Source: Candidatus Saccharimonadota bacterium (lineage in GTDB: Bacteria; Patescibacteriota; Saccharimonadia; Saccharimonadales; Saccharimonadaceae). From it: a stretch of DNA of 48,176 nucleotides. How positions within the stretch are numbered: position 1 is the stretch's first letter; every line of letters starts with the position of its first letter. Under the pieces are notes generated by a model. That model made no database searches, was not told the origin of the DNA, and saw only the letters and a program-made list of their open reading frames with translations. The stretch covers positions 1 to 48,176 of the forward strand of contig JAFWLS010000021.1 of the NCBI GenBank assembly GCA_017514045.1. The letters run 5' to 3'. Shown in pieces: positions 7,961 through 12,947 of the stretch. Position numbers and translations under genes: made by a program.

Positions 7961-8317
7961 TTATGCTCGTTTATATATTAAAAAACATCCTAAAAATACA
8001 AATATCGCCACAAGAGCTATTGTTAAAAGATTTACAGATCGAGCGACCAGTAATATGATCGGACCAAAGGCCACTACCGTGGCATACATATACGTTTTAT
8101 TTTCAGATATTTCTTTGTCTTTGCCATTCTTATCTTTTAGTATTCTCTGAAAAATTTTTACTAATTCAACCATCAATCCAAATAGAGCTATAAAAATCAT
8201 TGTAAAAAATACTAAAACACCTAAAACACCCGCTTCTTTAGGGGTGGTATAATTCAACATAAACAATATGCCAAAAAGTGAAAAAATGCTAAGAATTGGT
8301 ATGATTCTGCCACGCAT
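7961..8317 (-). CDS. small membrane protein (118 aa), unknown function
   Basis: Three hydrophobic segments are visible (about residues 5-22, 30-53 and 75-115), with a charged loop (FQRILKDKNGKDKEISENK) between the second and third. No family is recognised. TACAAT with an upstream TGT (8330-8325) ends 7 nt before the ATG, so the transcript should start at or one base from the start codon. The gene is 18 nt upstream of the 66-aa gene, and may belong to the same transcription unit as the ATPase. A candidate structured RNA lies just upstream on the same strand. Confidence 0.65.
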   Translation of the reverse strand: MRGRIIPILSIFSLFGILFMLNYTTPKEAGVLGVLVFFTMIFIALFGLMVELVKIFQRILKDKNGKDKEISENKTYMYATVVAFGPIILLVARSVNLLTIALVAIFVFLGCFLIYKRA

Positions 8318-8384
8318 ACATACTATTGTAACACACTTATGTTAAAGTGTATATTGGCGCCCCCAAGTTAAAATACATGGATCA

Positions 8385-8630
8385 AAGCGGGGGGATTATC
8401 CGGCTAATTAAAACTTACTATAGGCCGCAATCCTTATCCCCGCTTCAAATCACTTGACCGCTCCACGATTGTGGAGCATAGGTCCTAATTAGTTCCCTAC
8501 TCGTTCTAATTATGGTGAATGTACTAACGAGTCAAGACCTAACGCGCTTCGGCTTTGTTGACGAAGCTCTAGGTAATTCCTAAAAATGTAATTTATGGCT
8601 AGAAATTACCTTTTCGCACCGCCAACGGTG
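8385..8630 (-). ncRNA. candidate multi-hairpin structured RNA, family unassigned
   Basis: No ORF of note occupies this stretch, but it folds into a row of helices: 8385-8392/8438-8445 (8 bp) continued by 8393-8397/8429-8433 and 8401-8404/8424-8427; 8460-8466/8471-8477 (7 bp, GATT loop); 8479-8484/8536-8541 enclosing 8499-8505/8526-8532; 8546-8551/8562-8567; 8571-8578/8604-8611; and 8617-8621/8626-8630. The minus strand is preferred because a promoter-like TTGATT-17-TAGTAT lies upstream at 8729-8701; a weaker TTGTAA-18-TATATT exists on the plus strand at 8326-8355. It does not match tmRNA, RNase P or SRP RNA. I see no clear terminator, so it could also be a long leader of the 118-aa gene. Confidence 0.5.
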
Positions 8631-8700
8631 ATCTCTATTTGTATTTCATTTTAATGTTCTCATTTATTTTTAATGTTGATTTTTGTCATTCGACAACCTC

Positions 8701-8729
8701 ATACTAGCATAAATTTGTTACAAAATCAA
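8701..8729 (-). promoter_or_regulatory. possible promoter for the multi-hairpin RNA
   Basis: TTGATT (8729-8724), a 17-nt spacer and TAGTAT (8706-8701), giving a start near 8694. Moderate match only. Confidence 0.4.
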
Positions 8730-8897: not shown

Positions 8898-8926
8898 TTG
8901 ACACAAGCATTTTTGCGCGTTATGAT
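8898..8926 (+). promoter_or_regulatory. near-consensus promoter for a small RNA
   Basis: TTGACA (8898-8903), exactly 17 nt, TATGAT (8921-8926). Apart from the rrn promoter and the promoter at 34704-34732 this is the best full-length -35/-10 match in the window. No ORF follows; the predicted start is about 8933. Confidence 0.8.
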
Positions 8927-8932
8927 GGTATT

Positions 8933-9048
8933 AGCTTTTGAATAAAAATATTATTCAAAAGCCAAAAATAAACACATTTTAGCCAAAAATAACTCCACAC
9001 TCTACACGAAAGACCGGTTTTCCTCGCAGTTACCGGTCTTTCTTTTTA
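8933..9048 (+). ncRNA. candidate small RNA of about 115 nt
   Basis: The transcript would begin with a perfect 12-bp hairpin (GCTTTTGAATAA, loop, inverse repeat; about 8934-8962), continue as about 45 nt of unstructured A/C-rich sequence containing AGCCAAAAATAA twice, and end in a strong intrinsic terminator (9009-9018/9032-9041 plus T-tract). No start codon with a Shine-Dalgarno or a conserved peptide is visible. The hairpin/single-strand/terminator layout is typical of base-pairing sRNAs, but no target is proposed here. Confidence 0.6.
9009..9048 (+). terminator. intrinsic terminator of the small RNA
   Basis: Ten-bp stem AAAGACCGGT (9009-9018) with ACCGGTCTTT (9032-9041), 13-nt loop, then TCTTTTT on the plus strand. 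Confidence 0.85.
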
Positions 9049-9067
9049 CTTCACTTTCTTCAATTAC

Positions 9068-9119: not shown

Positions 9120-9476
9120 TGGTGGAGCTGCCGGATACTGCCTCCGGGTCCGAAAAATTACTGGATATCATTCTACGTGCATAGTTGCTTGTTTTGTCTT
9201 GGCTAATCGTACAAAGCAGCAAACAACAAAACTTCGTACTACCATGACAATATTTTCGTGGTCATCTTTGTCGTAAAACAACCCTTAATCCCGTTATATA
9301 ATAATTCCTTCCCTACGGAATCTTAGAAAGAAACCAGCCTATAAAATCAATTAGGCATAAGCAGGCATGTAAGCTACACGCTTGCCAATAGTGTTTTCAG
9401 CACTTATTTAACACTTACGGTGTTCAATCGTCACGCTTGATATCTGTTAATAATCCGTCTAAGCTTTTTCAGCCCC
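9120..9476 (-). ncRNA. ssrA: transfer-messenger RNA (tmRNA)
   Basis: tmRNA rescues stalled ribosomes with SmpB and tags the nascent peptide. The 5' end GGGGCTG (9476-9470) pairs with CAGCTCC (9130-9124), followed by an encoded ACCA end (9123-9120); the D-arm-like AGACGGATT follows the 5' strand, and helix 2 is supported by GATATCA pairing with TGATATC. A proposed tag frame at 9386-9351 reads GKRVAYMPAYA then TAA, with the stop inside a GCCTA/TAGGC helix 5, as usual in tmRNAs; the resume codon is inferred. The T-stem CCGGA/TCCGG is perfect, but its loop is GGCAGTA, not the expected TTCRANN. A separate promoter and terminator flank the gene. Confidence 0.93.
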
Positions 9477-12585: not shown

Positions 12586-12589
12586 GATA

Positions 12590-12947
12590 ATTGAGCTATC
12601 TGTAAGCCGGATTTTGTAATTCTCCTAAGAGAATCGGCAATCATCTATCTAGGCGCTCGGTTACCCGAACACTCGAGCGGTGAACGTGCGTCTCCGAACA
12701 AGAGCCAGTAGCACTCCTTGCAGCAAGTAGGGTTTGCCTCCGGTATATGTCACCATACACCGCTGTGAGCTCTTACCTCACTCTTTTCACCTTTTCCATT
12801 TTCGCTAGTAAAACCAACAAAATTGGTAGTATTGTCTCTGTGGTACTTTCCCTGCCCTCACGGGCGGTCGCCGTTAGCGACTACTTTGTCCTACGCTGTC
12901 CGGACTTTCCTCTTGAGCCAGGCTCAAGCGATTGCCTTTCAAGCTCC
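12590..12947 (-). ncRNA. rnpB: RNase P RNA
   Basis: RNase P RNA is the ribozyme that matures tRNA 5' ends. On the minus strand the hallmarks appear in order: GAGGAAAGTCCGGAC near the 5' end, a central GGAGGCAAACCC, AGATAGATGATTGCC, and AAATCCGGCTTACAG at the 3' end. Helix P1 is GAGCT (12946-12942) with AGCTC (12597-12593). The length of about 358 nt fits type A RNA. The 5' end directly follows the stop codon of the RNase HI fusion gene. Confidence 0.96.

Follow-up and report, generated by a model that had tools for sequence, protein, structure and literature searches.

The window, that is, the whole 48,176-nt stretch of DNA that was analysed, contains on its minus strand a segment (8385-8630) that is very likely part of a real and previously unnamed RNA gene of about 335 nt, running from about 8694 to 8360. 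As listed in Table 1, this gene lies between a tmRNA gene and the gene of a small membrane protein, and RNase P RNA is found in the adjoining region. Expression of the RNA is inferred, there being no transcriptome data, and its ends are inferred as well: the transcription start is expected near 8694 from the position of a promoter, on sequence alone, and the 3′ end was placed at ACUUGGGGG (8360-8368), the final block of conserved sequence. This second end is uncertain because no terminator was recognised within the window sequence itself.

Table 1. Features of the RNA locus and its surroundings (window coordinates)
Feature	Position	Strand	Description
RNase P RNA	12588-12947	-	Rfam match, adjoining region
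tmRNA	9120-9476	-	Rfam match
Second candidate small RNA	8898-9050	+	
Promoter of the RNA (putative)	8701-8729	-	-35 TTGATT (8724-8729), 17-nt spacer, -10 TAGTAT (8701-8706)
Whole RNA (ends inferred)	8360-8694	-	about 335 nt; homology and structure
Short ORF	8635-8649	-	AUGAAAUACAAAUAG (MKYK-stop), just upstream of H1
Hairpin H1	8557-8626	-	foot GUUGGCGG/UCGUCAAC, upper stem of 11 bp, loop with the antisense element; present in the predicted fold of the full-length RNA
Antisense element	8588-8602	-	CUAGCCAUAAAUUAC, complement of the infA mRNA start GUAAUUUAUGGCUAG; target at G000:C10:11291-11306, outside the window
Possible pseudoknot P2	8546-8567	-	GCUUCG (8562-8567, 3′ side of H1) with CGAAGC (8546-8551); perfect 6-nt inverted repeat
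3′ domain, multi-helix	8382-8549	-	match of models R1/R2; covariation; R2 match
Hairpin A	8460-8477	-	GCUCCAC/GUGGAGC, then conserved GGUCA; 7-nt perfect repeat
Hairpin B	8385-8445	-	AAGCGGGGAUAAGGAUUGCGG..CCGGAUAAUCCCCCCGCUU; 8-nt perfect repeat at base; order-wide element with covariation
118-aa small membrane protein gene	7961-8317	-	conserved neighbour; possible own TACAAT box (8325-8330)

Promoter, fold and covariation of the RNA

The minus strand of 8340-8645 was predicted to fold at -97.6 kcal/mol, compared to -72.2 +/- 4.6 kcal/mol for shuffled sequences (z -5.6), and 0 of 100 shuffles was as good; the plus strand of the same segment gave a z of -4.3. Inverted repeats within 8385-8614 include arms of 12 nt (92% matched), 8 nt, 7 nt, 7 nt and 6 nt. 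The putative promoter has 8 of 12 consensus matches, which is under the threshold of the consensus promoter scan, and hence it was not listed by that scan. Across 56 distinct copies from relatives, the promoter type TTGATT-N17-TATGCTAATAT was found in nearly all, with the same arrangement and the same distance to the hairpin, and the order of parts was likewise nearly always promoter, A-rich stretch, often a short ORF, H1, multi-helix 3′ domain and membrane-protein gene.

A sequence-only reading of this DNA had claimed an ordered multi-hairpin segment at 8385-8630, preceded by a minus-strand promoter, with no match to tmRNA, RNase P, SRP or 6S RNA. The ordered segment held, given the fold energy and the inverted repeats, although its coordinates were too short, as the promoter, the H1 foot (to 8626), the short ORF and the conserved sequence down to about 8360 show. 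The promoter also held, in that TTGATT-N17-TAGTAT is present in nearly all relatives, though below the scan threshold. No Rfam family matches at the locus, and the tmRNA and RNase P models match elsewhere. Specifically, Rfam 15 gave no match at the window locus, permissive E-values yielding chance matches only, and none at the RNA in the g47, g53 and g48 homologs or in homologs from other families.

In hairpin H1 the stem covaries and the loop is constant. Among 142 distinct copies, nearly all retain 10 to 11 of the 11 upper-stem pairs, and compensatory changes give stem variants such as GGUAAUU/AAUUACC, GCUUAUU/AGUAAGC, GGCAAUU/AAUUGCC and GGUUAUU/AAUAACC. The strands of P2 show correlated changes in relatives (GCUC/GAGC, GCUUC/GAAGC, GCUUG/CAAGC), which were read by eye and not scored; it is possible that they form a pseudoknot, or that they pair in place of the H1 foot. 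For the 3′ domain, an alignment of 36 sequences has 30 pairs, of which 22 have two-sided compensation; 94.5% of cells were paired, compared to 35-49% after sliding, and the covariation score was 0.436 versus 0.218 in shuffles. Hairpin A of this domain corresponds to an order-wide element, CGCUC..GAGCGGUCAGUCA.

Several variant architectures were also seen. A subgroup of the genus (loci L027, L039, L043, L045, L047 and L049) has a different H1 foot, UUCC..GGAA, and in the same loci H1 is separated from the 3′ domain by inserts of several hundred nt. At L048, L050, L051, L052, L270 and L272 an extra hairpin of about 40 nt interrupts H1, after the antisense loop and before the 3′ stem. The assembly of the window contains a second, diverged copy of the RNA (L031, G000 contig C5, 1250-1540) with its own tmRNA and a TraG-like gene; this copy and genome G054 have identical hairpin regions, and another species is therefore a possible source of the contig.

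Complementarity of the H1 loop to the infA start

The loop of H1, CUAGCCAUAAAUUAC, is a perfect 15-nt complement to the leader, start codon and first codons of infA, which encodes the initiation factor IF-1, in the genus of the window (g1) and in a related genus (g47). The first sign of this link was a set of weak extra blastn matches, all over one 20-nt piece, the H1 loop. The reverse complement of the loop, TGTAATTTATGGCTAG, was found in 69 of 70 genomes of the genus when one mismatch was allowed, typically in exactly two places, the RNA and infA, whereas a reversed-pattern control gave 2 matches in all. When 20 further sites were fetched, 17 proved to be infA starts (MASQKEVIKLTGKVVEALPN...), 1 was a copy of the RNA and 2 were incidental extra sites. 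In the listed rows for 174 genomes of the genus, the infA site reads GTAATTTATGGCTAG almost without exception.

The infA mRNA appears to be near-leaderless: a TATGAT/TAAGAT box stands about 5-6 nt ahead of the matching sequence, and there is no Shine-Dalgarno (SD) sequence. The pairing would span the entire 7-nt leader, the AUG and codons 2 to 3. The loop itself is identical in 136 of 142 distinct copies, and the other six (five types) have only A-to-G or C-to-U changes, all of which still allow pairing via G-U wobble; the infA partners of these variant loops were unchanged where seen. In g47, IF-1 has an N-terminal extension and the H1 stem is changed, yet both the loop and the infA GTAATTTATGGCTAG are retained. 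Codon 2 of infA is GCT wherever the loop exists, and is GCG, GCC, GCA or GCT in genera without it. A conserved seed with 15-16 nt of perfect complementarity to a distant target, the infA start, is shown in g1 and g47, and this seed is predicted by the folding model to be single-stranded, the loop being mostly unpaired at 0.75-1.0 in the full-transcript prediction, where its first 3-4 nt close the loop.

In support of the link, in nine genomes from other genera of the family, which lack the loop and have a different H1, the best complementarity of the RNA to the genome's own infA start was only at the level of shuffles.

There are limits to this evidence. No two-sided compensatory change between loop and target was seen, because both sides are nearly invariant; it was looked for in other genera, where the loop is absent. 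In the sole listed genome with an altered infA leader (G302, ATAATTTATGG), no assembled copy of the RNA was found. Co-folding of the RNA with infA gave only -3.9 kcal/mol, a weak energy that is due to the fact that simple co-folding opens the hairpin, pairing of a loop to a linear strand being outside the model of that program. A near-leaderless infA with the leader TGTAAYTT-AUG is family-wide and also occurs without the loop (L152, L156, L159, L165, L167, L168 and L172); therefore, part of the leader conservation has another cause.

A short ORF at the foot of H1

Upstream of H1, 95 of 122 copies from the genus have an ORF of 2 to 13 codons that is preceded by an SD sequence, compared to 15% after shuffling. 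The peptides are rich in K, R and P, and 74 of the 95 start with MK. Of 94 copies, all except six have the stop codon 23-36 nt ahead of the loop, a position corresponding to the H1 foot, and in 52 the distance is 25 nt. No such ORF was recognised in about a fifth of the g1 copies and in most g47 copies.

Distribution of the RNA and its neighbours

Searches by blastn with the minus-strand sequence gave matches in nearly all of 60 genomes of the same genus and hardly any outside it. Every named record that carries the loop belongs to Candidatus Saccharibacteria, apart from one bin labelled as an unclassified bacterium, and ruminant gut is the source of many of them. Three covariance models were used: R1, representing the genus; R2, R1 with divergent members added; and R3, built from 11 homologs, none of them from the family of the window. 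R1 found the RNA almost only inside its own family; with R2, it turned up in 26 of 50 genera within the family and also in seven other families of the order. The homologs found with R2 are compact: their 5′ part is A-rich, and hairpin A and then hairpin B (GGACGRUAAGCGCU..UAGUAAU..AGCGGAUUUAYCGUCC) come after it. A clear intrinsic terminator often follows, with the same small membrane-protein gene beyond it.

Within the order, R3 matched 118 of 196 genomes, and at the genus level 83 of 108, essentially always once per genome, with E-values down to 1e-21. Although built without the family of the window, R3 recovers the window locus (8384-8478, minus strand, E 5e-4). The RNA was also present in 3 of 3 genomes of a sister order; in the single one of these whose surroundings were examined, a terminator is present and the downstream gene is again the same. 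From the recovery by R3 across the order and the occurrence in the sister order, we conclude that there is, very probably, a class-wide RNA family, absent from Rfam, in the class that contains the Saccharibacteria. Signs that the RNA is a separate transcript are the conserved promoter and the terminators in relatives; no terminator was seen in the window, and there are no expression data.

Outside the class, L331 (G555) and L324 (G521) gave weak model matches, with an A-rich AAAAACAAAAAC and a hairpin-B-like terminator. The gene neighbour is not shared in these two genomes; the RNA may reach further into the phylum.

The small membrane protein has the motif T[NTS]P followed by LPxxLLxxPF or GPxGxLxFF, and its gene is a constant downstream neighbour of the RNA across the order and in the sister order (L295-L330, L323). 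The tmRNA was found near the RNA within the genus, upstream, in either orientation and at about 250 to 1500 nt, and a full tmRNA was beside the RNA in just 1 of 19 loci from other genera and families. The position next to tmRNA, which the sequence-only reading had pointed out, is thus true at the window locus and not general, and the association was dropped as a general rule. The tmRNA of the window scored 81 bits in the Rfam scan, yet it was missed by ARAGORN.

The second candidate small RNA (Table 1) lies on the plus strand between the tmRNA and the infA-linked RNA. It has a promoter TTGACA-17-TATGAT (11 of 12 matches), a strong hairpin and a terminator-like hairpin GACCGGTTTTCCTCGCAGTTACCGGTC with a T-tract. 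The loop of the latter, CCUCGCAGUU, is nearly invariant genus-wide, with matched changes in the stem; it includes CCUC, so an SD-type target is possible.

Discussion

The function that we consider most probable, and likely on the present evidence, is that of a trans-acting antisense RNA that blocks the translation of IF-1, possibly gated by the short upstream ORF (uORF). RNA structure, strand preference, conservation and complementarity to infA were computed and are shown; expression, duplex formation, repression and gating by the uORF are inferred, without functional data. In this model, an independently transcribed, single-copy RNA would present the 15-nt loop of H1, which would pair with the 5′ end of the infA mRNA over its 7-nt leader, AUG and codons 2 to 3. 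Such pairing would bury the sole ribosome entry point of the mRNA and so block IF-1 synthesis. The block is expected because the infA mRNA is near-leaderless, lacks an SD sequence and has no other entry point, and repression would be the natural outcome of a pairing that covers the leader, the AUG and codons 2 to 3.

The short ORF suggests a possible extension of this model, which is an inference and not a result. A ribosome terminating on the Lys-rich ORF of 2-13 codons would cover the foot of H1 and could open the foot or the pseudoknot; presentation of the loop would thereby be tied to initiation capacity, giving a feedback loop on IF-1. A bolder reading is that a class-wide housekeeping RNA became, in one lineage, an autoregulatory sensor of initiation, in which ribosomes terminating on the ORF set the exposure of an IF-1-silencing loop. 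We consider this reading less likely than not. If true, it would be, to our knowledge, the first antisense control of IF-1 and the first small RNA (sRNA) acting on a leaderless-type mRNA.

Among other explanations, the one closest to the preferred reading keeps the pairing of the RNA with infA and changes its outcome to protection of the 5′ end from decay, delivery of the mRNA to the ribosome, or remodelling of the RNA by the infA mRNA as a trigger. In its favour, pairing begins at the inferred 5′ end of the infA mRNA, the RNA carries GGUAAUUU beside the loop, so that strand exchange with the infA mRNA is possible, and the uORF at the H1 foot suggests a switch. However, the AUG itself would be paired, which normally blocks initiation, and the near-leaderless mRNA has no other entry site; we therefore regard this outcome as unlikely. 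Less likely still is that the RNA serves the 118-aa membrane-protein gene downstream of it as a 5′ leader or attenuator, an alternative that the sequence-only reading had left open. The gene follows the RNA immediately, on the same strand, throughout the order and in the sister order, and in several families a terminator lies between the two, as in an attenuator. Despite this order-wide adjacency, the leader reading is not favoured: the class-wide RNA often ends in a strong terminator, as seen in many relatives, in relatives a TATAAT/TACAAT box of the gene's own stands a few nt ahead of its ATG, and the conservation of the infA loop would be left unexplained. The other alternative of that reading, an undescribed lineage-specific structured RNA, is supported by the lack of an Rfam match, by syntenic homologs and by strong covariation; the complementarity to infA, the most informative feature, had been missed.

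It is very unlikely that the RNA is a structured RNA with an unrelated housekeeping role and that its match to infA merely reflects a binding or start-site consensus common to both. The core of the RNA is older and wider than the loop, and the conservation of the infA leader is also wider than the loop, as this explanation would have it; on the other hand, the 15-16 nt reverse complement is unique to infA in each genome, and the match survives through wobble and is absent where the hairpin differs. Finally, the plus strand could be the one used, with TGTAATTTATGGCTAG as the start of a mini-protein (MARNYLFA...) copied from the infA start region and the structure incidental. Most copies do read ATG GCT AGA AAT TAC CTT TTC on the plus strand. 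The content of the reading frame shifts between relatives, with early stops, it is the minus strand that agrees with the G-U pairs and with the compensatory changes in the stem, and the conserved promoter is on the minus strand; the mini-ORF was rejected on its early stops and the minus-strand covariation, and this reading is all but excluded.

The preferred reading, antisense repression of infA, can be compared with known systems. Trans-encoded antisense sRNAs of the RyhB and OxyS type pair with the translation start region. The RNA described here shares with them a separate transcript (inferred here), a short conserved single-stranded seed to a start region and a target elsewhere in the genome. 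It differs in being large and multi-helix, in its seed, the apical loop of a 5′ hairpin that an older RNA has acquired, in its target, which is near-leaderless and encodes a core initiation factor, and in the short ORF that ends at the H1 foot. The raiA motif RNA (PMC11706538) is also a conserved, complex, medium-sized bacterial RNA, but it is reported from other phyla and gave no match in any of our Rfam scans, although inclusion of the raiA model in the Rfam copy was not confirmed. 6S RNA (RF00013) is likewise single-copy, independently transcribed and of comparable size; it forms one rod with a central bubble, in contrast to the several separate hairpins found here. The 6S covariance model gives no match at the locus, and identity with 6S was rejected. 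In 15 genomes tested, none had a 6S RNA over the cut-off, whereas control genomes do score; nothing indicates that the RNA replaces 6S. The tmRNA (RF00023) is a neighbour in the family of the window, and both RNAs have a short reading frame beside structure; the tmRNA model matches at its own position in Table 1 and not at the RNA locus, and the orientation and distance of this neighbour vary.

The literature was searched and no description of such an RNA was found. The main text of a human-microbiome survey (PMC8040213) does not mention the group, and an unnamed candidate in its tables is not excluded. In a review of leaderless mRNA translation (PMC9031893), the control of such mRNAs by sRNAs is given as unknown, and the link to infA is a concrete case in which to test it.

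The non-coding RNA biology of Saccharibacteria, and of the whole Candidate Phyla Radiation, is almost blank. A single-copy RNA common to essentially the whole class, as is very probable here, would be an addition to the known core genes of these reduced genomes, and its link to infA in the lineage of the window offers a specific, testable target at the centre of translation.
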